From an uncultured beta proteobacterium (GTDB taxonomy: Bacteria; Pseudomonadota; Gammaproteobacteria; Burkholderiales; Burkholderiaceae_C): 48,623 bases of DNA. The notes below the pieces were generated by a model. That model was not told where the DNA came from and did not search any database. It saw only the letters and a list, made by a program, of their open reading frames with translations. Both the position numbers and the translations under genes were made by a program. The first letter of the stretch is position 1. Each line of letters begins with the position of its first letter. The stretch covers positions 1 to 48,623 of the forward strand of contig CAIPGC010000172.1 in the NCBI GenBank assembly GCA_903864505.1, written 5' to 3'. This document shows, piece by piece, positions 26,820-44,467 of the stretch.

Positions 26820-27086
26820 ATGAATGCTGCAAAATTGATAGTGTCCCGCGCACATTCTGTGCGGGATTTGACTGAAAACGTCCCCTCGCCTTGCGTTTCG
26901 GTGTGCACCATGAACGCTGCCACCGAATACTGCGACGGCTGTCTGCGCACCGTGGAGGAGATTGCGGCATGGTCGGTGTTGCCGGATTCCGCCAAGAAAC
27001 AGATCTGGTCGCTTTTGGAGCAGCGCGCCGCCTCTTTGCATAGCCCGATATCAAGCCAAGCAACGGGCGGGCAGTGTCATCCGTGA
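26820..27086 (+). CDS. DUF1289 small cysteine-rich protein
   Basis: An 88-residue DUF1289 (YdhL-type) protein. The family core is SPCVSVCTMNAATEYCDGCL followed by RTVEEIAAWSVL, with four Cys (C-x3-C, C-x2-C) that probably bind a metal. The function is unknown for the family. It begins 8 bases after liuE and its last 10 bases overlap the end of malQ on the opposite strand, so the two genes are convergent with overlapping stop regions. Confidence 0.88.
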   Translation: MNAAKLIVSRAHSVRDLTENVPSPCVSVCTMNAATEYCDGCLRTVEEIAAWSVLPDSAKKQIWSLLEQRAASLHSPISSQATGGQCHP

Positions 27087-28609
27087 TTTGAAGACATGTG
27101 CCCGAGTGCGCGGGGTCCGCGCCCGCTTGCGGCGGTAATGAGCCCCAGAATGCGCGCCGTTTCACCGTCGACATCCAACCAATCAAAACGCCAGGTCCAG
27201 TTGGTGCCGCCGATCGTGCCAGGAAAATTCATTCGGTGCTTGCCATCGAGTCCCAACACGTCTTGCAATGGAAAAACCGCCATGCTGGCAACCGAGTTGC
27301 AGGCAGCACGAATCATGGCCCAATGTATGTCTGTGGGGCCGGCTGCCAGGTAGTTGCAGGAATACTCCTGTTCGTGCTGTGGCGCACAGTGCCACCAACC
27401 CTGCACCGTGTCGTTGTCGTGGGTTCCCGTATAGACCACGCAGTTTGGCGCGTAATTGTGAGGCAGGAATTCATGTGAGCCGTCACCCCCAAAGGCGAAC
27501 TGAAGAATCTTCATGCCGGGGAAACCGCAGCTATCGCGAAGCTCTATCACGTCGGGTGTGATCAGGCCCAGGTCTTCGGCAATGATGGGCAATTTCCCCA
27601 GCGCGTGTTCGATGGCGTCGAACAAAGCCTTGCCGGGTCCGGGCACCCATCGGCCTACTTCGGCGGTGGGATGCTCCGCCGGAATTTCCCAGTATCCGGC
27701 AAAGCCACGAAAATGGTCGATGCGAATCACATCCGCATGTTCCAGTGCACGCCGAACACGTGCGGTCCACCAGGCATATCCCTCTGTCGCCATGCAGTCC
27801 CAGCGGTACAGCGGATTTCCCCAGCGTTGCCCCAGCGGGCCGAGATCGTCTGGAGGCACACCTGCCACAACGATCGGCTGATAGTTCGAGTCAAGGTCAT
27901 AAAGGTCAGGGCGAGCCCAACAGTCGGCGCTGTGGTGCGCAATGAAAATCGGCAAATCACCCATGATCGAAATTCCCCGTTCATTGGCGTATTGCTTGAG
28001 GGCTTGCGACTGCTGATCAAAACACCACTGCACGAATTGCCAGAAGGTGATTTCCGCGGCATGTTGTTGGCGAGCGCTGGAGACGGCGCCGATATTGCGC
28101 TGCGCCAGTGCGGGAGTCCAATGCCACCAAGGCCGGCCCGGATTCGCATTTTCGAGTGCCATAAAGAGGGCGTATTCTTGGAGCCAGTAAAACTGCTTTT
28201 CCAGCCAATGGGCAAAGTCATCGCGGTCAGAGCGAGTTGCATGGGATGTGAAGCCGGTAAAGGCACGTCGAAGTTGTGACAGTCGCCAGGGGGCGACCCG
28301 TGCAAAATCAACCCGAGAGTCATCGAACTTGTCTTCAGGCAACTCAATCGAGGCCAGCCAGCCCTTTTGTTGCAACGGCTCCAGGGCCACCATCAGGGGG
28401 CTCCCTGCAAATGCTGAGACGCTCTGATAGGGTGAGTCCCCCGGCCCAATGGGGGCAATCGGCAGCAGTTGCCAGACCCTTTGACCCGCGGATGCAAGCC
28501 AGTCAACAAAGCGATAGGCGTCAGGACCAAAGTCGCCGATGCCATGCGGCCCCGGCAGTGAGGTGATATGCGCCAGCACGCCGGCGCTGCGCTGTTGGGG
28601 TGGAGTCAT
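27077..28609 (-). CDS. malQ: 4-alpha-glucanotransferase (amylomaltase)
   Basis: A GH77 enzyme that transfers glucan chains between maltodextrins, releasing glucose, in the cytoplasm. It has 510 residues from ATG 28609, which gives the usual start before GVLAHITSLPGPHGIGDFG; a start at 28669 would add 20 unsupported residues. Landmarks are WQLLPIAPIGPGDSPYQSVS, GDLPIFIAHHSADCW, the nucleophile Asp in RIDHFRGFAGYWEIPA, acid/base Glu in IIAEDLGLITPDV and HD in YTGTHDNDTVQGWW. It is divergent from the malK operon; the 415-base gap carries a HexR-like palindrome. It lacks the extra N-terminal domain of E. coli MalQ, so it is the short type. Confidence 0.96.
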   Translation of the reverse strand: MTPPQQRSAGVLAHITSLPGPHGIGDFGPDAYRFVDWLASAGQRVWQLLPIAPIGPGDSPYQSVSAFAGSPLMVALEPLQQKGWLASIELPEDKFDDSRVDFARVAPWRLSQLRRAFTGFTSHATRSDRDDFAHWLEKQFYWLQEYALFMALENANPGRPWWHWTPALAQRNIGAVSSARQQHAAEITFWQFVQWCFDQQSQALKQYANERGISIMGDLPIFIAHHSADCWARPDLYDLDSNYQPIVVAGVPPDDLGPLGQRWGNPLYRWDCMATEGYAWWTARVRRALEHADVIRIDHFRGFAGYWEIPAEHPTAEVGRWVPGPGKALFDAIEHALGKLPIIAEDLGLITPDVIELRDSCGFPGMKILQFAFGGDGSHEFLPHNYAPNCVVYTGTHDNDTVQGWWHCAPQHEQEYSCNYLAAGPTDIHWAMIRAACNSVASMAVFPLQDVLGLDGKHRMNFPGTIGGTNWTWRFDWLDVDGETARILGLITAASGRGPRALGHMSSNHG

Positions 28610-28696
28610 GAGTTTGTGTGCACTCGGAGGTGGTGCAGGATTCCTGTGGCCATAGTGCCGACTGGGCATATCGAATAGTTAAATTCAGGAGACTTC

Positions 28697-28792: not shown

Positions 28793-28807
28793 CGTAGTTT
28801 TGCTACA
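28793..28807. promoter_or_regulatory. HexR/RpiR-like palindromic site upstream of malQ/malK
   Basis: CGTAGTTTTGCTACA is a palindrome (GTAG-N5-CTAC) that matches 13 of 15 positions of the HexR consensus TGTARTwwwAYTACA reported for proteobacteria. A near-identical copy lies before the TonB-dependent receptor gene. The locus encodes one RpiR-family regulator, the glucokinase fusion, which is the natural candidate to bind. It overlaps a possible -35 (TTGCTA). Confidence 0.6.
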
Positions 28808-29024
28808 GAGCGGGCCGCTCTAGTGAATATTACCAGTTAATGATTGTGCACATTGGTTCTCGCAAAGCGGATTCGCCATGTCGTATGACTACAGTTTGAA
28901 ACGGTATACTCGGCCGAAATATAGAGGTCAGTCCAGCGGATTGACGTGACGTGGCGACAAGCGTTGCTGCGATTCCCAATGCGAGACAAGTCGGTTCCAA
29001 TCGGGCACGGCGCGGAGGTATGAC

Positions 29025-30140
29025 GTGGCGGATGTAAGTCTGACCGGTGTTTGCAAGTCCTTTGGCGACGCGCAGATCCTGCACGAGATCGATCTCGATA
29101 TAGTCGATGGCGAGTTCATGGTTTTTGTCGGACCGTCAGGGTGCGGCAAATCGACCTTGCTGAGAGTGATAGCAGGTTTGGAAGACATCAGCGCGGGTGA
29201 GTTGACCATTGGCGGCAAGCGAGTGAACGACGTGCCGCCTGCCCAGCGCGGCATTGCCATGGTGTTTCAGTCCTATGCACTGTATCCACACATGAATCTG
29301 TATGACAACATGGCGTTCGGCCTTAAGTTGTCCAAAGTGCCCAAAGATGAAATTGACCGTGCGGTACATCAGGCGGCAAAAATTCTGAATATCGACCATC
29401 TCCTCCTACGCAAACCCAAAGATCTGTCGGGTGGGCAGCGTCAGCGGGTGGCGATTGGCCGGGCTATTGTGCGCAAGCCCGAGGTGTTCCTGTTTGATGA
29501 GCCTCTGTCTAACTTGGATACCGCGCTGCGTGTACGAATGCGTTACGAGTTTGCCAAGTTGCATGAGGAGTTCAAGACCACCATGGTGTATGTCACCCAC
29601 GATCAGGTGGAGGCGATGACACTGGCAGACCGTATTGTTGTGTTGTCTAGCGGTCGTATTGAGCAGGTGGGCTCACCGTTGACTCTCTATGAACACCCAG
29701 ACAACCTGTTCGTTGGCGGATTCATCGGCTCGCCTGGTATGAACCTGCTGGAGGGAGTCATAGTGGAATGCAGCGCGGACAGTGCCACCGTTCGTTTGAG
29801 CGCAGGCGAGTCCATTCTCTGCTGTGTTGATGCCTCGCGCGCCGCGATTGGTGATAGGGTCAAGTTGGGTGTGCGCCCCGAGCATCTTCGCCCGGGTGTG
29901 GCCGAGAACGCGCTGCACACCGAGGTTACTTTCGTTGAGTCGTTGGGCAGTATCACGTACGCCTACTGCCGCAACTCTGGCTGCGCGGAAGTGCTTACCG
30001 CGGCGGTGGACGGGCAGACCAGAGTGCGCAGCGGTGACGCACTCGCGCTTGGTGTGCCACCTGAACGCGCCTATCTTTTTGACGTCAACGGGAAGGCGTT
30101 GCATCGAACCTCTCGTCTGGGACCACGCGGTGCTGACTGA
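29025..30140 (+). CDS. malK: Maltodextrin ABC transporter ATP-binding protein MalK/MsmK type
   Basis: The ATPase of a CUT1-type sugar importer, cytoplasmic face. It has 371 residues. Walker A is GPSGCGKST (about 36-44), the signature is LSGGQRQR, Walker B is VFLFDEPLSNLD, and the H-loop is YVTHDQVEAM. The C-terminal TOBE/regulatory domain (from about 240) is of MalK type. GTG 29025 is the start because GGAGGT precedes it by 5 bases; the ATG 5 bases upstream opens a dead frame. It is first in a malK-malE-malF-malG-amylase operon. Its stop overlaps the malE start. Confidence 0.95.
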   Translation: MADVSLTGVCKSFGDAQILHEIDLDIVDGEFMVFVGPSGCGKSTLLRVIAGLEDISAGELTIGGKRVNDVPPAQRGIAMVFQSYALYPHMNLYDNMAFGLKLSKVPKDEIDRAVHQAAKILNIDHLLLRKPKDLSGGQRQRVAIGRAIVRKPEVFLFDEPLSNLDTALRVRMRYEFAKLHEEFKTTMVYVTHDQVEAMTLADRIVVLSSGRIEQVGSPLTLYEHPDNLFVGGFIGSPGMNLLEGVIVECSADSATVRLSAGESILCCVDASRAAIGDRVKLGVRPEHLRPGVAENALHTEVTFVESLGSITYAYCRNSGCAEVLTAAVDGQTRVRSGDALALGVPPERAYLFDVNGKALHRTSRLGPRGAD

Positions 30141-31332
30141 TCTGCTGCGCGCGTGGGGTGAACTTGCTGCCATAGCTTTGGCCCTCGCGTTTGCTGTGCC
30201 GGTGTCGGCCTACGCCAAGACCCCCCCACGTCTGTTGGTGTGGATAAATGGCGACAAGGGCTATAACGGATTGCAGAAGGTGGGTGATGCCTTTTCCGCG
30301 GTGTCGGGTGTGGGAGTGGTGGTTCAGCATCCTGAAGGAGCTCCCGACAAGTTCCAGGCGGCAGCGGGAGCTGGAAAAGGCCCCGACATCTTTTGCTGGG
30401 CACATGATCGTGCCGGCGAGTGGGCCAAGTCCGGGCTGATCGTCCCGGTCAAACCGTCTGCGCGGATTCGCGACGAGATTGAAGACTCTGCGTGGGAGGC
30501 TTTTTCCTATAAGGGGAAGATCTGGGGTTATCCGTTGGCGATCGAGGCGATCGGACTGATCTACAACACTGCCTTGGTGAAAATTCCACCGAAAAGTTTT
30601 GAGGAACTCATCGTGCTGGACAAGTCCTTGGCGCTTCAGGGGAAGAGGGCTGTTTTGTGGGATTACAACAAGGCCTTCTTTACCTGGCCAATGCTGGCAG
30701 GCCCAGGCGGGTTCATATTTGCCCGGTCGGCACAAGGGGAGCTCGATCCGAAAACGCTCGGTGTGAATGCGTCAGGCGCAGTGAAGGGCGCTGAAATGCT
30801 GCAGCGTTTGATCCGCGATGGGCATATGCCACAGGGTGCGCGCTATGCCGAAATGGAAGGAGGGTTCAGCCGTGGACAAATTGCCATGATGATCAGTGGA
30901 CCCTGGTCGTGGGACAACATACGCAAAAGCAATATTAGTTTTGGTGTGGCTCCCATCCCAAGCGTTGCCGGCTACCCTTCCAAACCCTTTGTTGGTGTGT
31001 TGGGATGCATGGTTGCAGCTCCCAGCAAGGTGAAGGACCTTGCCCGTGAGTTCCTTGAAAACCATCTGCTTCGCGTCGAAGGGCTCAGGACGGTTTCTGC
31101 AGATGTGTCACTTGGGACACCTGCCAACAAGGCGTATTTTCGAGAACTGTCTGCAGACCCGAATATCCGCGCCACGATGACCAATGCGCTGGCGGGTGAG
31201 CCCATACCCAACATACCAGAGACCGGGCGTTTCTTCCCTGCTATGGACGCAGCCTTAGAGGCAATAACCAACGGTCGTCAGTCGCCGAAAGATGCGCTTG
31301 ACGGCGCTGCAGCACGCATGCGGGTGAAATGA
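30130..31332 (+). CDS. malE: Maltodextrin-binding periplasmic protein MalE type
   Basis: The extracytoplasmic solute-binding protein of the maltodextrin ABC importer. It has 400 residues (E. coli MalE 396). The likely start is GTG 30130, overlapping the last codons of malK, which gives a Sec signal peptide of about 30 residues (hydrophobic LAAIALALAFAVPVSAYA with cleavage after AYA); there is no lipobox. MalE-type blocks include LLVWINGDKGYNGL, GKGPDIFCWAHDRAGEWAKS, GKIWGYPLAIEAIGLIYN, GGFSRGQIAMMISGPWSW and SKPFVGVLGCMV. The open frame continues far upstream within malK but that part is spurious. Confidence 0.94.
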   Translation: MLTDLLRAWGELAAIALALAFAVPVSAYAKTPPRLLVWINGDKGYNGLQKVGDAFSAVSGVGVVVQHPEGAPDKFQAAAGAGKGPDIFCWAHDRAGEWAKSGLIVPVKPSARIRDEIEDSAWEAFSYKGKIWGYPLAIEAIGLIYNTALVKIPPKSFEELIVLDKSLALQGKRAVLWDYNKAFFTWPMLAGPGGFIFARSAQGELDPKTLGVNASGAVKGAEMLQRLIRDGHMPQGARYAEMEGGFSRGQIAMMISGPWSWDNIRKSNISFGVAPIPSVAGYPSKPFVGVLGCMVAAPSKVKDLAREFLENHLLRVEGLRTVSADVSLGTPANKAYFRELSADPNIRATMTNALAGEPIPNIPETGRFFPAMDAALEAITNGRQSPKDALDGAAARMRVK

Positions 31333-31333
31333 C

Positions 31334-32866
31334 ATGATCGGAACCTCCTGGGTGAAAATCGTGTTGGGACTGCTGCTTGCACTGGCATTGCTATGGATGG
31401 TGTCTGGGTTCTATGCGGCGGGACAACCGCTTTGGGCCGTGGGCGTACTATTTTTTGGCGCCGCCACGCTCTACATCTACGGATCGGAAAGGGCCATGAC
31501 CTGGCGCTATTTGTTCCCGGGAGTGGCGGGCATGCTGGTGTTCGTAGCGCTGCCGCTTTTGTACACCATCCAAATTGGTTTCACGAATCATTCAGCTAGC
31601 AACTTGTTGAGTCTCGATCGAGCGCGTGCCTATTTGCTGGAGCAGTCAACTGTTGATGCAGATCAGTCCTTGATCTTTACGCTTCATCCTGAAGGCGGGG
31701 ACATTCGACTGGTGTTGACTCCTCCGGTGGACGGGGGGCAGCCGTCCTACGTTTCACCGCCACTGTCTCTGGACATGCCGGGGCAGACCAGTCCTGTGCG
31801 CATGCAGCCGTACACACCGGAAGTGGCCAATCGTGCGCCAGCACTGCCGCTGCGGGATGTGATCGCATTGCGGGACAGTCTGGCCGCATTGAAGTTGGAG
31901 TTGCCAGATAGGAAGGTCTTGAGTTACACCGGGGTGCGCGAGTTCGGCACGGTCGAGCGACTCTGGAAGGACGATGGCAACGGGGCATTGATGCAAGAAG
32001 GCACCGGTACGGTCTATACGCCCAACCATGAAACTGGATTCTTCGAAACTGCCCAGGGGGAACGATTACAACCAGGTTTCAAGGTCGGAATTGGCTGGAC
32101 AAACTACCGTCGCATCATGTTTGACGCTGATATGCGCGGACCTTTCTTTTCCATCTTTCTCTGGACGGTCATTTTTGCCGGGCTGACCGTAGTGTTCTCT
32201 ACCGCCCTAGGAATGACACTGGCCGTGGTGCTGAACTGGGAGGCGCTGCGCTACCGGACGCTGTACCGGACGCTTCTCTTCTTGCCGTACGCGGTGCCCG
32301 GATTTATTTCAATTCTGGTGTTCAAGGGGCTGTTCAACCAGAATTTTGGCGAGATCAATGCTATTTTGAGTGCTCTTTTCGGTGTCCGCCCGGCGTGGTT
32401 TGCCGATCCGACGCTGGCCAAGGTCATGCTGCTGGTGGTCAATACCTGGTTGGGCTACCCGTACATCATGGTGTTGTGCACAGGACTTATCAAGGCAATA
32501 CCGGCTGATCTCTACGAAGCATCGGCCATCGCAGGGGCCAAGCCGTTGACCAATTTCTTCAAGATCACGGTTCCGCTCATCGTTAGGCCTATGACGCCGC
32601 TTCTTATCTCGGCATTTGCCTTTAACTTCAACAATTTTGTTCTGATTTCCCTGCTGACGGATGGTCGTCCCGACTATCTCAACACCAAGCTGCCTGCAGG
32701 CACGACAGATATTCTGGTGTCGTACACCTACCGAATAGCCTTCACCGATGCGGGCGCCAATTTTGGACTGGCAGCTGCAATTTCGACTGTGATATTTTGC
32801 ATGGTAGCGTTGATGTCGCTCGCCAATCTGAGGATGGCGAAAGTAAACGAACAAGACAGGAACTGA
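31334..32866 (+). CDS. malF: Maltodextrin ABC transporter permease MalF
   Basis: An inner-membrane permease subunit. The 510-residue length matches E. coli MalF (514). After the first two membrane helices comes [20 protein letters not shown] then [13 protein letters not shown], a MalF hallmark, then the large periplasmic P2 loop (about residues 90-250) that contacts MalE. The core permease domain follows, with the EAA loop [20 protein letters not shown] that docks on MalK. Start ATG 31334 is 1 base after the malE stop. The long P2 loop separates this transporter from the Gram-positive type MalF. Confidence 0.96.
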
Positions 32867-32870
32867 ACCT

Positions 32871-33761
32871 ATGGCCATCGTGACCGGAAGTAGTCAGCGT
32901 TGGCGCGTTGTTGCTGCGCATGCGGGGCTGTGGGCGTTGATTGCGGTTACTTTGTTTCCGCTGCTCGCAGTAGTTTCAATTTCGCTTCGACCCGGCAATT
33001 TCTCTACCGGATCACTCATCCCTACGCAGATCAGTTTGGAGCATTGGAAACTCGCCCTCGGCATGAGCTATGTCTTGCCGGACGGATCGGTCGTCACGCC
33101 GCCGTTTCCTGTCCTGTTGTGGCTTTGGAACTCCATCAAGATTGCGACTATTTCTGCATTTTTGATCGTGGCAATTTCGACCACGGCAGCCTACGCATTT
33201 GCACGCATGCGCTTTCTATTCAAGAGCGCCATTCTCAACAGCTTGTTGCTGCTCCAGATGTTTCCGGTTGCGGTGGCTCTGGTCGCCATCTATGCCATTT
33301 TCGATGGATTGGGATCCTACATTCCCTGGATCGGGATTGAAACACATGCAGGGCTAATCGTTGCCTATATGGGGGGCGTAGCGATGCACATATGGACTAT
33401 CAAAGGGTACTTTGAAACAATACCAGTGGAGATAGAGGAATGCGCCAGAGTCGACGGGGCCACCCAGTGGCAGGCCTTTCGATTCGTACTGCTGCCGATG
33501 TCGGTGCCGATCTTGATGGTTGTTTTTGTGCTGGCCTTTATCGGCACTGTCATCGAATATCCGGTGGCCTCTGTGCTGCTTCGAGAGGAGCCGAATCTGA
33601 CGCTTGCAGTGGGATCCAAGTATTACCTTTACGAGCAGAAATATCTGTGGGGCGACTTTGCCGCAGCGGCAGTGCTGTCAGGATTGCCAATTACGCTCGT
33701 CTTTCTTGCTGCGCAGCGATGGATTGTGTCGGGCTTGACCGCTGGGGGTGTAAAAGGGTGA
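32871..33761 (+). CDS. malG: Maltodextrin ABC transporter permease MalG
   Basis: The second permease subunit, 296 residues, exactly the E. coli MalG length, with six predicted membrane helices. The N-terminal [20 protein letters not shown] and the region [20 protein letters not shown] are MalG-type. The EAA loop reads [20 protein letters not shown]. The C-terminus ends with the short GGVKG tail that enters the transport pathway region in E. coli MalG. It begins 4 bases after malF, and its TGA overlaps the GTG start of the amylase gene. Confidence 0.96.
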
Positions 33762-36469
33762 TCCGACTGGTTGTGCTCGTCTGGATTTGGCTAGTTTCAA
33801 CACCATTGGTTGCCTCGACAGCACTCCAAATTGACGAAGCATCTTGCAGGAAGGACCCGTTCGACAGGCGCACACTCTACTTGCGCGGTACGTTCAACAG
33901 CTGGAATGCCGTGGAGAGCCAGAAGTTCATCTGGGCCTGCAGTCAGTATCAACTTGTCACTGTTCTGGAGGGAGACCACAGGTTTAAGGTCGGCGATGAG
34001 TCCTGGTCGGCAGATGCAGATTTCGGAGCTCGCGACAAGACGCCAGAGTTGGTCCGCCGGGGCGTCGAAATTCAACACCGTTTTACCGGAACGCACCGCG
34101 TGACCTTTGCCATGGACCCGGATAAGGAGCCACACACATTGCAGATTGAGAATTGTCCTTTGCCTGCTCCCTTCGGAAAGACCACCCTGTACCTTCGCGG
34201 GACGATGAACAACTGGGCGGCGCTTGATCTGTTCGCCTTTCAGTACAGTTGCGACGGCTACTATTTGAACGTCAACTTGTCGACACCGCACGAGTTCAAG
34301 ATTGCCGACGCAGCCATGAACGAACTCACAACTTTCGGGCGTTCACCGGAGGGGACGCTGGTGGTCGGTGGCACGGGTAACCTGTCGCATCCCTTCGGCG
34401 GAGAACAGACCGTAAAGCTGACGTTCGATCATGGGAAGCCCAAGCTTGCCGTCGGCCCCAAGACCTTTGCCGACCCGATTTCGATTGGTGTCGCCGACCC
34501 CGTCGCTTTGAGCATGCATTTCGATTCACGCGCGCGTGACAACAAGTCACCTTTTGGGGCCGTTGTTGCCGGAACAACGGTCCGGTTTGGAATGGCCGCG
34601 CGTAAGGGTATTGACAAAGTGACACTGGTAGTGGAGCGGCGTCGGCTTGAAGGCAATCAGGAGATTCTGGAGTACACCGAAGTGGCGCGTATTCCCATGG
34701 TACGAAGCGAACAGGGAAGGCTTGAGCGCTGGGAGGCTAGTTACCTGTTTGGGGATGTATCCGTCTATGGTTATTGGTTTGATGCAGAGATCGGGGGGCG
34801 CAAGTTCGTTTACCAGAACAACCTTGATCCCATCTTCTGGACGCGTGAAAAAGGTTCTGGCGGGCTCGGCCGGGTCGATGACAGTGCTGCGACAACGAAG
34901 AATATTCGGCGTTTCCGCCAAACTGTCTACACCGCTGATTTCAAGGTACCTGAGTGGGCTCCTGACATTGTTTTCTACTACATCTTTCCGGACCGCTTTC
35001 GTAATGGGGATAGAGGCAACGACCCAGCGCCCGGCCTCAGCAGGTACCACAACAGCACGGTGGAAATGCACAAGAACTGGAATGAATTGCCGTTTCTGCC
35101 TGGCAGCGGTGATGGCTCGGATGACGTGTACAACAACGATTTCTTTGGCGGCGACCTGGCCGGCATCATTGAGAAACTGGACTACATCAAAGAACTGGGT
35201 GCCAACACCATCTACATGACACCTGTATTCCAGGGTGCAAGTAACCACAAGTACGATACCGCCGACTACAGAAATATCGACCCCGCCTTTGGTACGAATG
35301 ATGATTTTGTCCGTCTTGCACGCGAAGCGGCACGGCGCGGTATTCGGATCATTGTGGATACGAGTTTGAATCACACCGGAGCCGATTCAATCTACTTTGA
35401 CCGCTTTGGAAATTACCGGTCAGGTGGTGCGTTCGCGGGAGGAAAGATTCGCGCAGATTCTCCCTTCTCCGATTGGTACACCTTTGACCCGTCCCAGACG
35501 GATCCTGACAAGCAGTACAAGGGGTGGACGGGCGTTACCGATTTGCCTGAACTCAATAAGGCATCGCCGGCATTCCGCAAGTTCGCCTACGGAGCCGACG
35601 ATTCGGTCATGAAGCGGTGGCTGGATCGGGGTGCTGCAGGTTGGCGGATGGACGTAGCGCCGTGGGTTCCGGACGATTTCTGGCGCGAATGGCGCAAAGC
35701 CATCAAACAGCATGCTCCGGATGCATTGACGGTGGCTGAGACTTGGTTTGATGCATCCAAATACTTTCTGGGGGACATGTTCGATTCAACCATGAACTAC
35801 ATCTTCCGCAGCACCGTGCTGGAATATGCGGCCGGCGGCAAAGCCTCCTCTTTATATTCGAACATCGAACAGATGCGTGAGGCTTACCCGCCGCAGGCGT
35901 TTTATGCGTTAATGAATTTGCTTTCCAGTCACGATCAGGCGCGTGCGCTGCACGTACTGGGCTGGAACGCAATTTCTAATGACGCAGAACGGGTTGCGCT
36001 AGCGAAGAGTCGCCTGAAGCTGGCGATGCTTTTTCAAATGACTTTTCCAGGCGCACCAGCTGTGTATTACGGCGACGAGGTGGGAGTTACCGGTGGCGAT
36101 GACCCGTACAACCGTGCGCCGTACCCTTGGGCTGATCAGGGAGGTGCCCCTGACCATGATTTGCATGCTGAAGTCAGGCGCCTGATAAGACTGCGCCACG
36201 ATAACCCCGTATTGCGACGTGGCTCCATGGGCGCGCCGCTGTACATCGATGATCACGTCATCGTGCTGTCTCGCCAGCTCAGTGGTGTGCAGGCGATAAC
36301 CGCATTCAATAACGCCTTAGAGCACCGTCGGGTCTCGATCCAACTGCCAGAATGGACGAGCAACGTGTCGCTTACGGATGCTTGGACCGGTGCTATCACA
36401 GATGCAAGGGACGGGAAACTCACCGTGGACATTCCAGCCCTGAGCGGAATTATTTTGCTTAGTCAATGA
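33758..36469 (+). CDS. Periplasmic GH13 alpha-amylase/neopullulanase with tandem N-terminal modules
   Basis: An exported 903-residue GH13 glucan hydrolase. GTG 33758 overlaps the malG stop (GTGA), giving a signal peptide [19 protein letters not shown]. Two related ~95-residue modules follow, starting [13 protein letters not shown] and [13 protein letters not shown], which look like starch-binding/E-set folds. A further N-domain of neopullulanase type comes next, then the TIM barrel from about residue 405 ([13 protein letters not shown]). Catalytic blocks: DTSLNH (about 531), nucleophile Asp about 631 in GWRMDVAPW, acid/base Glu about 661 in VAETW, and SSHD about 725. In an operon with malKEFG, it probably shortens or linearises dextrins in the periplasm before import. 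Exact specificity is not fixed by motifs. Confidence 0.91.
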
Positions 36470-36494
36470 CTTGTCACGGCCGGTTGCTGCATGG

Positions 36495-36509
36495 TGTAGT
36501 TTGCCTACA
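36495..36509. promoter_or_regulatory. HexR/RpiR-like palindromic site upstream of the TonB receptor gene
   Basis: TGTAGTTTGCCTACA is a palindrome with TGTAG/CTACA arms, matching 13 of 15 positions of the HexR consensus TGTARTwwwAYTACA. It differs from the malQ/malK site at only 3 positions. It lies 254 bases before the receptor start and just after the amylase stop, so it might act on the receptor promoter or be a distal site. Confidence 0.6.
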
Positions 36510-36633: not shown

Positions 36634-36683
36634 ACAAGAAAATATCTTGTTTTGGTACAAACGTACTGTTCTGTAGGCAGTAC
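36634..36683. promoter_or_regulatory. Two inverted repeats in the receptor promoter region
   Basis: ACAAGA-AAATA-TCTTGT (36634-36650) and GTACTG-N9-CAGTAC (36663-36683) are perfect 6-bp-arm palindromes in an AT-rich stretch 80-130 bases before the receptor start. They are candidates for operators of a maltose-responsive regulator or for leader structure. No recognisable -35/-10 pair can be assigned with confidence. Confidence 0.4.
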
Positions 36684-36762: not shown

Positions 36763-39486
36763 ATGAATTCCCTTGTTCAGCGTCCCGACAAAGCGCTTTC
36801 GCGTCGCTCTGCGTTTAAGTTAGCCCCGGTCGCCGTTGGCTGCGCCGCCCTATTGCTGGTTACCGCGAGCGCCTACGCGCAGCAAGCCGACACCTCACTT
36901 GGCGTCGTTACAGTAACGGGCATTCGCGCGGCGATCGAGAGCGCGATATCTGTGAAGAAAGGTTCAGATGCTATCGTTGAGGCGATTTCTGCCGAAGATT
37001 TGGGCAAACTGCCAGACACCAGCATCGCCGACTCCATTGCTCGACTGCCGGGCGTTGCGGCCCAGCGCAACTGGGAGGGTCGTGCAAGTCAGGTCAGTGT
37101 CCGCGGTATGCCGCCGGATTTCTCGACAACTTTGCTGAACGGTCGCGAGGTCGTTAACCCCAATGATGGGCGAGGGGCAGAGTTTGATGCATATCCGACA
37201 GAGTTGATCAACGGTGTCGTGCTGTTCAAGACACCAGATGCTGCGCTGATGGGGCAGGGGATTTCCGGAACTATCGACTTGCAAACCGTGCGTCCTCTCA
37301 ATGTCAACGGGCAAAAAATCTCGTTTGGGCTGAATGCGCAGCAAAACAGCATTGGTTTGGGACCAACGGGCGCTGGAAACAACTTTAGTTTTTCCTATAT
37401 CGACCAGAACAAGGAAAAGACGCTGGGCTTTGCTATCGGGGTTGCGCGTCAGAAGGGCGACTCAACCGGTCGAGCAGTCAATAGTTTCGATGACTCGGGA
37501 ACTTTTGCTGATGGTACAAAGATTGCTCTGCAAAAGAGCGTTACTGAGGCAACGCAACAGTCCACGTTTACACGTGACGGCGTGATGGCGGTACTTGAAT
37601 TCAAGCCCAGCAAGAATTACTCGTCGACGCTCGACCTGTTCTCATCCAAGACTGACCGCAGATCGTTGGGCCACCAGGTAGCATTCCCCAATTTCAACGG
37701 AGGCACGTTGAGCGGCGCAACCATTGTGGATGGTGTTGCTCTTGCAGGAACGGTGTCTGGTGTTCAAGGAATTGTCCAGACTATCGGACAGCAGCAAAAT
37801 GATGACAATCTCGCAATCGGCTGGAATAACAAGTTCAAGATTGATGCCAACTGGTCTGGTGTTGTCGATTTGTCGCGCTCCACCTCTAAGCGAGCTGAAA
37901 CCGACCTGGACTCGAATGCAGTCACTGGCAACAAGGGAACGTTGACGTTTGACAGTAGAACCAGTATTCCGACGTTCGGGTTTACCGGCGACAATCTTGC
38001 CGATCCTTCAAAACTGCTGCTTGGCGACACGCCTTGGGGCAAGGGTTGGCTGAAGAAGCCAACGATCGACGACACGTTGAATTCACTGCGTGTCGAGTTC
38101 AAGCGCAACCTCGAGAACGCATATTTCTCTGCAGTTGATTTTGGATTGAACTATTCAGACCGTACCAAGGTTCTCGGGATGACGGAAGGGTCTGTCGACT
38201 TTAAGAGCGGAGCAAGCACCGCAGCGCTACCGACTTCTTCCGCCATCAACGCCGGCATTTCCAACATCAGCATCTTGGGCTGGGATCCGATCGCATTGAT
38301 CGACTCAGTTTACAAATATACCGACATGGGTGACCAGTCTTGGGCGCGGATGAAGAACTGGTCTGTTGCCGAGAAGGTGTTGACAACTTTTGCAAAACTG
38401 GACATTGAAACCAGTATCGGTGGTATTCCCGTGCGTGGTAATGCAGGCGTTCAAATTGTCAAGACCGACCAGAGCTCCGTAGGGTTGACCTCCACAACTG
38501 TCGCAACTTGGGGGAACCCAGAGGGGAACCGTTACGTAATTAACGAACAAGGGAACCAGAGTGGTGGGAAGTCCTACACCGACGTGCTGCCGAGTTTGAA
38601 TCTGGTGTTTGACGTCGACAGCAACCAGGCGGTTCGCCTTGGCGTTGGGAAAATGCTGGCCCGTCCGACTATGCGCGACTTGCGAGCCAACGCGGTACTT
38701 GAATGCTGGTCACCTTCTGACGGAAGCTACAGTCCAACCAGCTGTAACGGCAATCACAGCGGTAGTGGTGGAAATCCTCTGCTCGATCCATTCCGCGCAA
38801 CGACATTTGATCTTGCCTATGAGAAGTACTTTGGCAAGCGTGCGTATGTGGCTGCCGCGGGGTTCTATAAGAACCTGGATACTTTCATTTATCAGCAGAG
38901 CTTTAAGTCGAATGTCCTTGCGGACAAGTACGGGCTGACTGGCTACCCCACATTGGACTATACCGGCCCAATGAACGGGGAAGGTGGCCAGATCTGGGGC
39001 TACGAACTCTCTGCCAGTGCGCCGTTTGACATGCTAACACCTGCCCTTTCAGGTTTTGGCGCATACGTCAACTACTCGGATACGCACAGCTCGGTCAATA
39101 TTCCCAACAGCATCGGTGGCTCTGCGACCAAAATGGAACTCCCTGGCCTATCCAAGCAGGTGCTGAACCTCAGCGCTTACTACGAGAAGGATGGATTTTC
39201 GGCGCGCGTGGGTCAGCGCACTCGATCAGACTTCATTGGTGAATTCACGAGTAATGAGTATGAACGCAAGCTAACCTATATCAAGGGTGAAAAGATTGTC
39301 GATGTTCAGATCGGCTATGAATTCAAGAGTGGAACGGCGAAGGGACTGTCCGTGGTATTCCAGGCGAACAACGTCAATGATGCGGTGTTCCAAAAGTATC
39401 GTGTGAATGCAGATGGATCGCAGGAAATCACGTCGTCGTCGCAGTATGGCAAGAACTACATGCTGGGTTTGAATTACAAGTATTGA
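36763..39486 (+). CDS. TonB-dependent receptor, maltodextrin/starch oligosaccharide type
   Basis: An outer-membrane active transporter of 907 residues in the TonB-Xanthomonas/Caulobacter family. The ATG at 36763 yields a signal peptide ending near SAYAQQ; the open frame from 36601 adds 54 unsupported residues. The TonB-box region reads VVTVTGIRAAIESA. The plug domain contains LPDTSIADSIARLPGVAAQR and VSVRGMPPDFSTTLLNGREV. The beta-barrel runs to a C-terminal aromatic (LGLNYKY), as required for barrel assembly. Placement between the malKEFG-amylase operon and the glucokinase gene suggests uptake of maltodextrins, as for Caulobacter MalA; no sequence motif fixes the substrate. No LamB-type porin is present in the window. 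Confidence 0.92.
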   Translation: MNSLVQRPDKALSRRSAFKLAPVAVGCAALLLVTASAYAQQADTSLGVVTVTGIRAAIESAISVKKGSDAIVEAISAEDLGKLPDTSIADSIARLPGVAAQRNWEGRASQVSVRGMPPDFSTTLLNGREVVNPNDGRGAEFDAYPTELINGVVLFKTPDAALMGQGISGTIDLQTVRPLNVNGQKISFGLNAQQNSIGLGPTGAGNNFSFSYIDQNKEKTLGFAIGVARQKGDSTGRAVNSFDDSGTFADGTKIALQKSVTEATQQSTFTRDGVMAVLEFKPSKNYSSTLDLFSSKTDRRSLGHQVAFPNFNGGTLSGATIVDGVALAGTVSGVQGIVQTIGQQQNDDNLAIGWNNKFKIDANWSGVVDLSRSTSKRAETDLDSNAVTGNKGTLTFDSRTSIPTFGFTGDNLADPSKLLLGDTPWGKGWLKKPTIDDTLNSLRVEFKRNLENAYFSAVDFGLNYSDRTKVLGMTEGSVDFKSGASTAALPTSSAINAGISNISILGWDPIALIDSVYKYTDMGDQSWARMKNWSVAEKVLTTFAKLDIETSIGGIPVRGNAGVQIVKTDQSSVGLTSTTVATWGNPEGNRYVINEQGNQSGGKSYTDVLPSLNLVFDVDSNQAVRLGVGKMLARPTMRDLRANAVLECWSPSDGSYSPTSCNGNHSGSGGNPLLDPFRATTFDLAYEKYFGKRAYVAAAGFYKNLDTFIYQQSFKSNVLADKYGLTGYPTLDYTGPMNGEGGQIWGYELSASAPFDMLTPALSGFGAYVNYSDTHSSVNIPNSIGGSATKMELPGLSKQVLNLSAYYEKDGFSARVGQRTRSDFIGEFTSNEYERKLTYIKGEKIVDVQIGYEFKSGTAKGLSVVFQANNVNDAVFQKYRVNADGSQEITSSSQYGKNYMLGLNYKY

Positions 39487-39690
39487 TTGGAGAACCTCAG
39501 GGTTTTCGGACATGAAAGGTGGCAGGGCGGGTGATTTTTTCACAATGCCTTGCCACTCAATCATCCATAGGAGGGCCTCGTTGCGTTGGGCGAGAGCCAT
39601 GGGCTTGGAATGGGTGCGGAAGTGTTCAACTTCTTGCGCAGGCCGCAGGGTCGATTTGGTATTCGCGGATGAGTGAGTGTGGGGTAATTG

Positions 39691-41610
39691 GTGAATTCTT
39701 CGCTTTTCAATAACCCGCGATTGTTGGCAGATATTGGGGGTACCTATGCACGATTCTGTGTGGAGGTTGCCCCAAACAATTTTTCACATGCAGCGTCACT
39801 GACCTGTGCCGATCATGCGGATTTCTACTCTGCCGTAACGTCCTACCTGTCGGGTGTGATGGGAACGCTCAAAGGAGAAATCAAACACGCAGCGGTTGCG
39901 ATTGCGAATCCAGTGGCCGGCGACCTGGTTCGCATGACCAATTACCACTGGACATTCTCAATCGAAGAGCTGCGCCAGCGACTGGCGCTGGACAACTTGG
40001 TGGTGGTCAATGACTTTACCGCGCTGGCAACGGCTGTGCCGAGGCTCCCCGCTGCGCAGCGACGTCAAGTTGGAGGTGGCACGGTGGTTCCCCGAAGCGT
40101 CATCGGACTCATCGGTCCTGGTAGCGGACTTGGTGTGTCCGGTCTGATTCCGGCGCAGGACGGGTGGATTGCTTTGGGGACTGAGGGTGGGCACACCACC
40201 TTCTCGCCCCATGATGAGCGTGAAGTAGCAATTCTTCGCTACGCTTGGCGCTATTTCGACCATGTCTCATTCGAACGCCTGTTGTCGGGGCCCGGTATTG
40301 AACTCATTTTTTGCGCATTGTCAGAGCGCGCAGGGAATGCACCCAGGGAACTCAAAGCCCCGCAAATAACGCGACTGGCATTGGACCGTGGCGATGAAAT
40401 TTGCACCGAAACTCTCGAGGTGTTTTGCGCCATGCTGGGGACTGCTGCCGCCAATCTGGCGGTAACGCAAGGGGCCTTCGGTGGCATTTACATTGGAGGA
40501 GGTATCGTTCCGAGGCTCGGACAGTATTTTGACCAGTCACCTTTTCGCCGTCGATTCGAAGACAAGGGACGCTTCGCAGGCTACATGGAAAGCATTCCGA
40601 CCTTTGTGATCACAGCACCCGATGCGACTTTGATCGGAGCGTCGGCACTACTGGCCGATCAGCTTCACGCATTGGACGCTTCCGACGGCTCAGCGATTCT
40701 GGCGCAGATTCGACGGGGCTTGCCCAGTCTGTCGCGTGCTGAACAAAAGGTCGCCAAGCACATACTGGCACATTCCCGATTGGCATTGAATGCTCCCATT
40801 GGACAGATTGCGGAGGCGGCGGACGTCAGCCAGCCGACCGTTATACGGTTTTGCCGGTCTCTCGGATGTGAGGGTTTGTCCGACTTCAAGCTCCGTCTCG
40901 CATCGGGCTTGACGGGGACCATGCCCATTACGCACACGCGCGTTACTGGGGATGACTCGATGTTGGAGCTAGGTGCCAAGGTGCTGGGGAATACTGCGGC
41001 GGCGATTCTGCAAGCACGCGATCATCTCAATCGGGAGACTATGGATCGCGCCACGCGGCTAATTGCTGACGCGCCGAGGCTGGATATTTACGGTGTTGGG
41101 CACTATGGTTCAGTGGCAACCGACGCCCAGTTCAAATTTCTGCGGGTGGGTGTGCCGGCAGTAGCCTACACGGACACAAGGCTACAGGCGCTGTCGGCGG
41201 ATTTGTTGAATCCACAGACCGTAGTCCTCGTTGTCAGCGGCAGTGGCCGCATTGCAGAACTGCTGGATGTAGCCGAGAAGGCCAAGGAGCGTGGTGCCAC
41301 GCTGGTTGCAATTACACAGAGTCAATCGCCGCTCGCTCGCAAGGCAGATCTGGCGCTCATTGTGGATCACGTTGAAGATATCGCCACGCAGGTTCCCATG
41401 ATCAGTCGCATCCTGCACTTGGCAATGATTGATATCCTGGTGGTTGGCGTGGCGCTTCAAAGGGGCGCTGTTCAGAAGGCGCAATGTAGTGCTGCGACCC
41501 AGACATTGGACGAGGCAAAACCGCATTACTCTGTTCCCAGACCACTATCGGGCGGTCTAGGTGTGAGCGTTGCTGGCACGCTTGCACACCTTACTTCGTA
41601 CAGCAGTTAG
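39691..41610 (+). CDS. glk: Bifunctional glucokinase / RpiR-family transcriptional regulator
   Basis: A fusion of about 639 residues. Residues 8-330 are a proteobacterial glucokinase: LLADIGGTYARFCVEV (phosphate-binding), VVNDFTALATAVPRL (catalytic Asp in NDF), ALGTEGGHTTFSP and a GGIYIGGGIVPRLG segment. Residues about 334-410 are an RpiR/HexR helix-turn-helix (LSRAEQKVAKHILAHSRLAL, IAEAADVSQPTVIRFCRSLG). Residues about 460-600 are a SIS sugar-phosphate-binding domain (DIYGVGHYGSVATDAQFKF, VLVVSGSGRIAELLDVA). The fusion is known in Burkholderiales. GTG 39691 with GGGGT about 6 bases upstream is preferred over TTG 39688. It would phosphorylate glucose released by MalQ and amylases and may sense the product. 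Confidence 0.95.
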   Translation: MNSSLFNNPRLLADIGGTYARFCVEVAPNNFSHAASLTCADHADFYSAVTSYLSGVMGTLKGEIKHAAVAIANPVAGDLVRMTNYHWTFSIEELRQRLALDNLVVVNDFTALATAVPRLPAAQRRQVGGGTVVPRSVIGLIGPGSGLGVSGLIPAQDGWIALGTEGGHTTFSPHDEREVAILRYAWRYFDHVSFERLLSGPGIELIFCALSERAGNAPRELKAPQITRLALDRGDEICTETLEVFCAMLGTAAANLAVTQGAFGGIYIGGGIVPRLGQYFDQSPFRRRFEDKGRFAGYMESIPTFVITAPDATLIGASALLADQLHALDASDGSAILAQIRRGLPSLSRAEQKVAKHILAHSRLALNAPIGQIAEAADVSQPTVIRFCRSLGCEGLSDFKLRLASGLTGTMPITHTRVTGDDSMLELGAKVLGNTAAAILQARDHLNRETMDRATRLIADAPRLDIYGVGHYGSVATDAQFKFLRVGVPAVAYTDTRLQALSADLLNPQTVVLVVSGSGRIAELLDVAEKAKERGATLVAITQSQSPLARKADLALIVDHVEDIATQVPMISRILHLAMIDILVVGVALQRGAVQKAQCSAATQTLDEAKPHYSVPRPLSGGLGVSVAGTLAHLTSYSS

Positions 41611-41611
41611 C

Positions 41612-44416
41612 CTACCTGCTTCCCTTTAACCTGCCCAGGGGTCTCACGTAGACCAGTGCTGTTCGGCCGGGGATGGTGAACTGACCCGTCTGGTTTTCGT
41701 AGTCGGCAGCGCTGATTCGCGCATCTCTAATTGCAGCGGCTTGGAGAGCGGGGTGCAGAACCAGCTTCTTGTTGCGCATTTCATCAAGCACGATCTGTTG
41801 CGCAGTAGGGGCGACGTTGATCAGGTAGATTAACTCGCCGAATACCGCACCCGGGTAGCCCTCCCCATCGACGTGCCCTATGAGGACGACCGGATTCTGG
41901 TTGGCTCCGGTGTTATAGAACTGCAGCCGTTTCTTTATATCGGTTGCCGAACGCAGGCGAAACAGCGTGGTGCTGGATCGAATCTGAATCAGCGTGCGAA
42001 ACATATCCCGTGCGGCCGCGATTTCAAGTGGACGGGGCCTGATAGAAGGATTCGCGAGGCGTGGTTTGATCCAGGCGTAATTCCTGCCATTGTCGCTCTT
42101 GGGTGGCGCGCCGGTACCGAAGTAGTTGTCGGTGTAGGTCCAGTCGATTCGGTTGAACCAATCGCCAGAATCGTAGCTGTTGGCGTCCATTGATTTGGAC
42201 CTCAAGGTATCAATTCCAGCATGAAAATAGGCGATGCCCTGGCTGAACGCATTGATCGCCACCCCCAGCATTTGCACACGCATCCGGTCTTCAGAGGCGG
42301 TGCCCAAAGGCAACTTGTATGCGTTGATGTCAAACAGGGTCTGGTTGTCATGATTCTCCACATAATTGACAACTTCTGAGGGTTCACTGGCGTAACCGGC
42401 GGGCTGGCCGCCATAGTCGATTTCCCGCAGCGCCTTGCGGATATCCTCGTGGGTAATCAACGAAAAGTCGCGTATGGAACCGGCCAAACCGACGCGAACG
42501 TGATCGGCAAGTTGCCTGAGATTTGATGCCGTCGTCCCTTTTGGCGCCACATCGTTGGGGTCGTACACAAATCCATTGATATAGCCCTGGTTTGCTACCA
42601 GCGCGGCCCCATCATCGCCGGCACCGCCGCCGCGAATGGCATCCCGACCGCGGTCGCTGAAGGTGCCGATGCCAGAGTTATTCAGCGAGAGCTGCGAAGC
42701 CTGAACAAAGCGAGCACCGTTCGCTACTTCACCGAAATTCCAACCTTCTCCAATCAGATTGATGTGCTTCCCCGTCGCAGTGTCAACGGCAATTTGCAGA
42801 GATTCCATCACCGATCGGGGTTGGTGTGCCATCAAATCGAACCGGAATGAGTCGACGTGGTACTGTGTGGCCCAGAGCACGGTGGAATCGATCATGAGCT
42901 TTCCCATCATCATGTTCTCGGTTGCCGTGTTGTCACAGCAGGTGGATCGCTCGACTTTTCCGGCAGCATCCAGGCGGTGATAGTAGCCGGGCACGATCCG
43001 GTCCAACACCGATTTCTCGCTCTGCCCTGATGCGGCGGTGTGGTTGTAGACCACGTCCATGCCGACGCGTAGACCCGCTCGGTGCAGCGCTAATACCATT
43101 GCCCGGAACTCGCGGATTCGGGTTGCACCATCGGATGCGTCCGTTGCAAAACTTCCCTCTGGCGCGCTGAAGTGAAAGGGGTCATACCCCCAGTTAAAGC
43201 AGTCTTTTGCAGCAAATTGCATGACTTGCGCCTGTTGTCCCTCACTGTCAGGGGCTTGTCCGTGAATGACTGGAGCGACGCAACCGTCCTCGGGGACGGT
43301 TGCAATGTCGAACACAGGCAAAAGATGGATATCGGTTAGCCCTGCGTTGGCCAAGGCTTGCAAATGCCGCATTCCATAGGATCTCGTGTCGGTGAACGCA
43401 AGGTACTTACCGCGATGCCTGGCATTCACGGATGCATCGTTTGCCGAAAAATCCCGTACGTGCAATTCATATACGACCATCTCAGTTGGGTGTCTGACTT
43501 TGACAGGAACTGGCGTTTTGGACCACCCATAGGGTTTGAGCGACGGTGCGTTCAGATCGGCAATGTAGCTTCGCGCGGAGTCGGTGGTCAGGCTGATCGA
43601 ATAGGGGTCAGTAACGCGGTTGCGCACCATGCCAACCCCGGCTACAAACACATCCACCATATAGGTGTAGTAGTGGCCTGATAGGTCTCGAGGGACCCGT
43701 ACCGACCATGCCCCAGTCGCGTCATCGCGACGCAAGGAGTGCGCTGTAAGAACCGGCCCTGAGCCCTTTCGGTGGAGGCATACCGAAACCTGCTGTGCAG
43801 TAGGAGCCCACAGTTTGAACTGGGTGTGATGGGTCAGGATCCTGACCCCCAGGTCGCTAGTTGCTTCTGCCCTAACGTAGAGATCATCAAGTGCGCCGGC
43901 GACCTGCAAAGCAGTTGAATTGCCTACTTCCCCGCGTTCGTTCTCCTGAACCAGTAGTAGTTGACCGGTGAGCAGCGGTGGCAGTCGAACCAGATCTGAC
44001 GCGCGCAGCGACAACAGGGCGCCATCGGCCACGTACTTGAACCGTGTCGCCGTCGCAGCAGGCAGTTCATGTGTGACGAGGTCCAGTTGAAGTGCGCCAT
44101 CAGCACCTGTCACTGCCGAACCATGGGGGGCATGAAGTTGCCCTTGTGAAGAGTAATACAGCTTGTAGATGCCGACCATCGCGGCGTTTGGCCACTTTAT
44201 TAGTTGCCGGTTTAGCCAATACGCGTTTGCTTCTTGGGCGGTGGAGGGCGAATTTCGCAGGACGGTCTGAAATTCGGGAGCATTGCAATCATCCAGTTGC
44301 AGGGTCGAAGCACCTTCAGCGCTTACCAAAGTGCAGAACGGTGCAAGAAGAAAGATTCCAACACCTGCGCGAAATGCAGTCAATAGAAGCAGGGCTGATT
44401 TGAATCGATAGTGCAT
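41612..44416 (-). CDS. pulA: Exported pullulanase (GH13_13, alpha-1,6-glucosidase)
   Basis: A 934-residue debranching enzyme cutting alpha-1,6 links of starch-type glucans. ATG 44416 gives a signal peptide (SALLLLTAFRAGVGIFLLAP, cleavage near LVSA) without a proper lipobox; the open frame continues upstream 142 codons but that part is implausible. The N-terminal domain has the pullulanase AYWLNRQLIKWP segment, then the CBM48-like FKLWAPTAQQVSVCLH. Catalytic region: YELHVRDFS, FNWGYDPFHF (pullulanase mark), VVYNHTAASG, nucleophile Asp about 525 in FRFDLMAHQP, Glu about 554 in IGEGWNFGEV, and VENHDNQTLFD. It is convergent with glk with stop codons 1 base apart, and divergent from a lipoprotein amylase gene. 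Confidence 0.95.
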   Translation of the reverse strand: MHYRFKSALLLLTAFRAGVGIFLLAPFCTLVSAEGASTLQLDDCNAPEFQTVLRNSPSTAQEANAYWLNRQLIKWPNAAMVGIYKLYYSSQGQLHAPHGSAVTGADGALQLDLVTHELPAATATRFKYVADGALLSLRASDLVRLPPLLTGQLLLVQENERGEVGNSTALQVAGALDDLYVRAEATSDLGVRILTHHTQFKLWAPTAQQVSVCLHRKGSGPVLTAHSLRRDDATGAWSVRVPRDLSGHYYTYMVDVFVAGVGMVRNRVTDPYSISLTTDSARSYIADLNAPSLKPYGWSKTPVPVKVRHPTEMVVYELHVRDFSANDASVNARHRGKYLAFTDTRSYGMRHLQALANAGLTDIHLLPVFDIATVPEDGCVAPVIHGQAPDSEGQQAQVMQFAAKDCFNWGYDPFHFSAPEGSFATDASDGATRIREFRAMVLALHRAGLRVGMDVVYNHTAASGQSEKSVLDRIVPGYYHRLDAAGKVERSTCCDNTATENMMMGKLMIDSTVLWATQYHVDSFRFDLMAHQPRSVMESLQIAVDTATGKHINLIGEGWNFGEVANGARFVQASQLSLNNSGIGTFSDRGRDAIRGGGAGDDGAALVANQGYINGFVYDPNDVAPKGTTASNLRQLADHVRVGLAGSIRDFSLITHEDIRKALREIDYGGQPAGYASEPSEVVNYVENHDNQTLFDINAYKLPLGTASEDRMRVQMLGVAINAFSQGIAYFHAGIDTLRSKSMDANSYDSGDWFNRIDWTYTDNYFGTGAPPKSDNGRNYAWIKPRLANPSIRPRPLEIAAARDMFRTLIQIRSSTTLFRLRSATDIKKRLQFYNTGANQNPVVLIGHVDGEGYPGAVFGELIYLINVAPTAQQIVLDEMRNKKLVLHPALQAAAIRDARISAADYENQTGQFTIPGRTALVYVRPLGRLKGSR

Positions 44417-44467
44417 GGTGCCAGTTCTGGAGTCGGTACGCGTTGCCAGTATATTGGGAGCATGCAT

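Follow-up and report, generated by a model that had tools for sequence, protein, structure and literature searches.

Palindromic boxes at a starch locus of an uncultured betaproteobacterium as probable operators of a glucokinase-RpiR fusion protein

How is the use of starch and maltodextrins controlled in a bacterium whose starch locus carries conserved palindromes and encodes a glucokinase (Glk) fused to an RpiR-type regulator? The locus belongs to an uncultured beta proteobacterium of the Burkholderiaceae_C and is located on contig CAIPGC010000172.1 of assembly GCA_903864505.1 (4.04 Mb, 94% complete, 4% contamination); the whole stretch of 48,623 nucleotides is referred to as the window. We consider it probable that the Glk-RpiR fusion uses the palindromes as its operators; it would then be a repressor devoted to the use of starch and maltodextrins, and a sugar signal would release it. 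The place of the boxes, their conservation, the promoter geometry, the co-occurrence with the fusion and the residue changes of the protein were all established by computation.

In Pseudomonas the regulator RccR binds the 15-bp box TGTAGT-N3-ACTACA, of which two copies precede aceE at a distance of 68 bp from each other, and HexR binds TTGT-N7-8-ACAA with 2-keto-3-deoxy-6-phosphogluconate (KDPG) as ligand (PMC5489143). Boxes were scored as matches out of the 12 half-site positions of the RccR-type operator, using thresholds of at least 10 or at least 11 of 12, and the three boxes of the window reach 10, 11 and 11. A preliminary description of this DNA had listed two palindromes and called them HexR-like. 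Both are present, at 28793-28807 and 36495-36509, they differ at three positions and each has two mismatches to TGTARTWWWAYTACA, but a third one at 28879-28893 had been missed; moreover, the palindromes fit the box of RccR, a HexR relative, and not the Pseudomonas HexR site (PMC5489143). The boxes and their immediate surroundings are as follows:

28793-28807, + strand: malK box I, CGTAGTTTTGCTACA, 10/12, in the divergent intergenic region of malQ (-) and malK (+)
28879-28893, + strand: malK box II, TGTCGTATGACTACA, 11/12, two mismatches to TGTARTWWWAYTACA, 86 bp after box I
28905-28910, + strand: -10-like hexamer TATACT of malK; the -35 candidate TCGTAT lies inside box II and is poor (2/6)
29025-30140, + strand: malK
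36495-36509, + strand: receptor box, TGTAGTTTGCCTACA, 11/12, between a GH13 enzyme gene (ending at 36469) and the receptor gene, about 260 bp before ATG 36763
36763-39486, + strand: TonB-dependent receptor; the open reading frame (ORF) is listed from GTG 36601, and ATG 36763 is the likely start in our reading
39688-41610, + strand: Glk-RpiR fusion, the proposed regulator, starting at TTG 39688 or GTG 39691

The sites rise above chance because their position is conserved in relatives (G and L numbers are our labels for genomes and loci). In genomes with a starch-type fusion, all 27 malK promoters that could be tested have a box of at least 10/12 (at least 11/12 in 23), while 59 permuted half-sites gave a mean of 0.24 of 27 and a maximum of 3. 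This set leaves out promoters with less than 300 bp upstream (G021, G126, G151), genomes in which no malK start was found (G127, G253), G071, G143, G179, G220 and G221, and genus members whose stretches lacked malK. The promoters of the TonB-dependent receptor, counted after removal of late-starting or weak receptor matches and of regions below 300 bp, carry a box of at least 10/12 in 32 of 32 cases (at least 11/12 in 26; permuted half-sites: mean 0.86 of 32, maximum 10). A box also precedes the fusion and/or the adjoining glk gene in 33 of 37 genomes, the window's genome being among the four misses, and when the mal operon is unlinked from the fusion (1.9 Mb away in G234, on another contig in G122) the malK pair is kept, 87 bp apart. 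The 46 starch-type fusion stretches (772 kb; 36 genomes) contain 53 boxes at 11/12 or better, as opposed to 0-4 for five other spacers and none in 11 other-fusion stretches (166 kb). At the lower threshold of at least 10/12 they hold 126 sites, compared with a mean of 13.0 over 60 half-site letter orders (TGTAGT included). Taking the window and 57 fusion stretches together, 113 of 134 such sites are found within the 600 bp that precede an anchored starch or glk/fusion gene, 8 are inside one and 13 elsewhere. One sequence, GGTAGCAAAACTACA (or its reverse complement), is found without any change in glk/fusion promoters of different genera (L106, L107, L109, L111, L112, L163, L257, L260, L262, L264, L267 and others), and L190 (G081) carries a box pair 87 bp apart, at 6148 and 6235, with no anchored starch gene close by.

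A second box of at least 10/12 follows box I after 86-90 bp in 19 of the 27 malK promoters, and it overlaps the -35 candidate in all 19, with the candidate starting with TTG in 17. In 23 of 27 promoters TTGnnn is followed at 17-18 bp by a TATAAT-like hexamer, a spacing that is partly given by construction, because the search for the -10 was confined to an interval defined relative to box I and kept the best of three spacers. A weaker box (9/12) covers the -10 in 15 of 27, so that box II and/or this weak box is present in 25. The location of box II on the -35 candidate in 19 of the 27 promoters suggests repression. A GG(G)-N4-CCC word was also seen a few bases after box I in the malK promoters of many relatives (L182, L186, L188, L220, L223, L229, L230).

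The protein itself has the HTH_6 (PF01418) plus SIS architecture of the RpiR family, with 71.7 bits for PF01418 and precomputed PF01418 and PF01380 assignments on the window protein, which bears out the preliminary description that an RpiR regulator fused to glucokinase is encoded at the locus (39688-41610). The PRK14101 model (NF010701) matches residues 7-605 with 760 bits, below its cut-off of 920 but with the same architecture, and the HexR model PRK11302 reaches 224.9 bits (cut-off 296), a cut-off also missed by a stand-alone HexR-like protein encoded beside zwf (245.2 bits). In the incomplete (94%) assembly the fusion is the only PF01418 match found; a separate glucokinase of its kind was not seen either, because the fusion is the sole match to the fusion query, a search that did not extend to other glucokinase families.

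The fusion co-occurs with maltodextrin transport. Its absence was defined as no match at E <= 1e-100 with at most six candidates scored per genome. In the genus sample it was found in 10 of 60 other genomes at 67-75% identity, once split over two contigs, and an eleventh genome (G029) contains the Glk half only, with the match running to the contig end. In the family sample a match at E <= 1e-100 was obtained for 43 of the 199 other genomes. malF (E <= 1e-70) is present in 39 of these 199, and the fusion occurs in 36 of the 39 with malF versus 7 of the 160 without it (Fisher p 5e-29, with genomes counted as independent of ancestry). Among genomes with malK in which no fusion was detected, G160 and G176 lack the box. 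The fusion is present in named records that include metagenome-assembled genomes and strains of Rhodoferax, Roseateles, Pelomonas, Paucibacter, Undibacterium and Oxalobacteraceae. The culturable strain Roseateles saccharophilus DSM 654 has fusion and boxes (L262; gene context covered for 13 of 30 loci). Database relatives amount to 3413 matches at E <= 1e-100 among 8000 candidates scored; the domain order was seen in the 120 listed, 49 of which entered the homologue alignment. In a tree of the RpiR halves, for which 7 of 20 solo rows were used, the clade-2 fusions (L144-L151), the solo proteins and the far fusions each lie on one side of a branch, and the starch clade needs two changes (one in 50% of the bootstrap trees); long branches meet in this tree, and its bootstrap is unsettled. 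A classification of the clade-2 fusions as "Entner-Doudoroff (ED)-linked" was rejected, as malEFG lie in the same stretch in 6 of 8. Boxes occur near glk or mal genes in two clade-2 genomes (G151, G243; L189, L198).

Does the fusion simply act as a HexR, with KDPG as inducer and the kinase half as an enzyme only? We regard this as unlikely. The KDPG contacts of RccR are S139, H148, R152, H164, S183, S185, S188, K270 and R277 (PMC10810197), and our comparison covers S139 to S188, with K270 and R277 not aligned and identical sequences counted once. At the seven positions the window protein reads Y, F, R, R, S, S and I. The 41 starch-type fusions (window included) keep S139, H148 and S188 in no case and H164 in one, whereas the 20 solo HexR proteins keep S139 in 20, H148 in 18 and H164 in 19, with Thr at position 188; because the pocket is altered in the starch clade, KDPG appears less likely as the signal. 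A plain HexR would nevertheless be in line with the best matches of the RpiR half, which include HexR and the KDPG sensor RccR, with R152 and S183 kept in 41 of 41 starch-type fusions, with S139 and H148 kept in the eight clade-2 fusions and with an eda-family match in 53 of 53 other fusion genomes. The 94%-complete assembly of the window has no match to the zwf, eda and pgi families, through loss or assembly gaps. The lack of eda and zwf argues against a KDPG-controlled HexR, but may reflect an assembly gap because pgi is missing too, and we rejected these absences as proof that KDPG cannot be made: a single missing contig could cover zwf, pgi and hexR, since they are neighbours in the relative L116, where eda is located elsewhere, apart from pgi-zwf-hexR. 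Upstream of zwf (stand-alone HexR), TGTAAC-N3-GTTACA is present at 10/12 or better in 19 of 19 cases, with 18 for near variants and 14-17 for unrelated words.

A main role in binding the boxes for the stand-alone HexR-like paralogue of the relatives, in place of the fusion, is improbable. This RpiR protein is found in many genomes of the genus, is about 42% identical to the RpiR half of the fusion and keeps the KDPG contacts, but the 20 solo-hexR stretches (344 kb) contain no box at 11/12 or better and two at 10/12 or better, six no-fusion genomes have 1-3 sites of at least 11/12 genome-wide versus 3-8 in ten starch-fusion genomes, and no stand-alone copy was found in the window's incomplete assembly. 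Less credible still is that the palindromes arose by chance or serve another regulator, for instance one of the LacI type: two-mismatch matches are common in the genome and two LacI-type regulators are encoded on contigs other than the window, but place and spacer of the box are conserved and it co-occurs with the fusion. A further question is the sign of regulation, as the fusion might activate and box I, always present and far upstream, would then be the activating site. Box I in all 27 malK promoters, set against box II in 19, and the receptor box far upstream of its gene are compatible with activation, which we nonetheless hold to be unlikely, since 25 of the 27 malK promoters have box II or a 9/12 box on the -10, a place at which binding would obstruct RNA polymerase, even if the 9/12 sites are weak.

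We return to the fusion as a repressor and to the part that its kinase half may play. We take Asp100 to be the catalytic base of Glk and GGTNAR to be its phosphate loop. The glucose contacts of E. coli Glk are Asn99, Asp100, His160 and Glu187 (PMC13133996), and all four are kept in the window protein and in 39 of 39 starch-type relatives (identical sequences counted once). The Asn of GGTNAR is replaced in all 39 (Tyr or Phe in 38, Glu in one; Tyr in the window) and is Tyr in all eight clade-2 fusions; among 38 separate glucokinases it is kept by 37 and is His in one. Clade-2 kinase halves may be catalytically dead, because Asp100 is Asn in 8 of 8. Further nucleotide-site motifs are changed in 6 of the 39 starch-type relatives, and 33 keep the remaining motifs. 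Such a pattern would be expected of a sugar sensor that evolved from a kinase, but the 33 may still be active. A glucokinase half turned glucose sensor and wired to an RpiR repressor of starch use, arisen apart from the ROK repressors, is a tentative proposal. The kept contacts, the replaced Asn, the changed Asp100 in clade 2, the remodelled KDPG pocket and the canonical glucokinase that usually adjoins the fusion speak for it; the other motifs kept in most copies and the lack of a separate glucokinase of this kind in the window's incomplete assembly speak against it.

From all this we infer DNA binding by the fusion, repression and a ligand along the following lines. The RpiR half would bind the TGTAGT-N3-ACTACA boxes, at malK on box I and box II, with box II covering the -35 region, and at the receptor gene on the one box about 260 bp upstream, and a sugar signal would free the fusion from them. 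This signal is probably one other than KDPG, either glucose bound to the kinase half or a hexose phosphate occupying the altered SIS pocket. Glucose 6-phosphate, which the kinase half may itself produce, is a candidate for the latter. Control by glucose phosphorylation state, which the preliminary description suggested, is a conjecture, glucose itself being as plausible a signal as its phosphate.

Several observations weigh against this model. The number of sites alone is weak evidence and does not favour it. Within the window there are 5 matches at up to 3 mismatches versus 1.62 expected (5 or more in 2 of 100 shuffles), but in the genome TGTARTNNNAYTACA has 144 places at up to 2 mismatches versus 323 for the same pattern backwards, and TGTAGTNNNACTACA at up to 1 mismatch is found 4 times, including 2 intergenic sites of this locus, versus 19 backwards. 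We therefore rejected genome-wide box counts as evidence, the backwards pattern being commoner. The preliminary description had asked for conservation in orthologous promoters and for a frequency above random: the former holds, together with the Glk-RpiR fusion and starch/maltodextrin genes in many genera, while numerical enrichment does not. In the starch-fusion stretches the permuted half-site TGTTGA reaches 74 sites at 10/12 or better versus 126 for TGTAGT, and it outnumbers TGTAGT in the solo-hexR (47) and other-fusion (22) stretches. Of the 58 sites of at least 11/12 in the ten starch-fusion genomes, 34 are at starch or glk/fusion promoters, and the other 24 are unassigned. In clade-2 fusion genomes only one of the four malK promoters that could be tested has a box, G231 (83% complete) has a box with no fusion detected, box II at 10/12 or better is absent from 8 of 27 malK promoters, the -35 of the window's malK promoter is poor and the window's own fusion gene lacks an upstream box. 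Finally, Ala at S139, H148 or H164, positions that are changed here, abolished DNA binding of RccR (PMC10810197).

The gene order is malQ(-), malK-malE-malF-malG-GH13-TonB receptor-fusion(+), pullulanase-type enzyme(-) and second GH13(+). The remaining features are:

20020-21144, - strand: AraC-type regulator gene of the window, beside acyl-CoA carboxylase-like genes
27077-28669, - strand: malQ, 4-alpha-glucanotransferase, divergent from malK
30139-31332, + strand: malE; long ORF from 29824, homology from near 30139
31334-32866, + strand: malF
32871-33761, + strand: malG
34640-36469, + strand: GH13 enzyme; long ORF from 33440
36645-36661, + strand: second receptor-promoter element, TCTTGTTTTGGTACAAA, 150 bp after the receptor box
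41612-44842, - strand: pullulanase-type enzyme; no box found upstream in the window, weak sites only
44651-46132, + strand: second GH13 enzyme; no box found upstream in the window

The preliminary description had regarded the fusion as the only local regulator, which is correct for the starch genes but not beyond them, given the AraC-type gene in the window and the LacI-type regulators on other contigs; MalT was not searched for. In many relatives a separate glucokinase gene adjoins the fusion; between 39487 and 41610 in the window there is none, nor does a box precede the fusion gene. The second receptor-promoter element, TCTWGTTTTRRTACAAA with at most one mismatch, lies about 150 bp after the receptor box; it is present in all 6 starch-fusion genomes compared and in none of 4 others, and a further copy with one mismatch sits on another contig of the window's genome. 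It is nearly invariant in the receptor promoters of L098, L100, L102, L106, L109, L112, L113, L162 and others, often with GGGTTT about 20 bp upstream, and looks like a degraded box, yet is more constant than the box.

The proposed control provides a testable model for starch uptake in starch-using relatives of Rhodoferax and Roseateles, and would link a fusion with many database relatives to a regulon, to a binding box and to putative ligand sites. The data suggest that the kinase-like part helps the cell to sense glucose and to set the amount of starch machinery; should the kinase half be the sensor, it would add to the cases in which a sugar kinase has become a regulator. In the titles and consulted passages of the literature on HexR, RpiR, glucokinase fusions and maltodextrin we found no description of this regulon, and the main HexR survey, that of Leyn et al. 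(2011), or RegPrecise may contain an earlier prediction.

Among known systems, the ROK-family repressors Mlc, NagC and XylR join a DNA-binding part to a sugar-kinase fold able to sense sugar. Their kinase family and their helix-turn-helix (HTH) differ from those of the fusion, and the design would be convergent at most. The bifunctional glucokinase/HexR fusion of PRK14101 (NF010701) has the same domain order and matches over almost the whole length, but our protein stays below the cut-off, sits in a starch locus and has Tyr in the GGTNAR loop; this kind of glucokinase-HexR fusion has been named in Paraburkholderia xenovorans (PMC12568896). HexR of gammaproteobacteria (PMC5343134, PMC5489143) shares the RpiR family, a carbohydrate regulon and, in the consensus TGTARTwwwAYTACA quoted in the preliminary description, the palindrome, whereas it regulates zwf, edd, eda, glk and others and the targets linked here are starch genes. 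RccR of Pseudomonas (PMC5489143, PMC10810197; PDB 8K3B) has an RpiR-family HTH and SIS domain, uses the same 15-bp box and matches the RpiR half of the fusion with E 8e-55. Unlike the fusion, RccR has no kinase half and targets pyruvate, glyoxylate-shunt and gluconeogenesis genes, and its KDPG contacts are mostly changed in the starch-type fusions.

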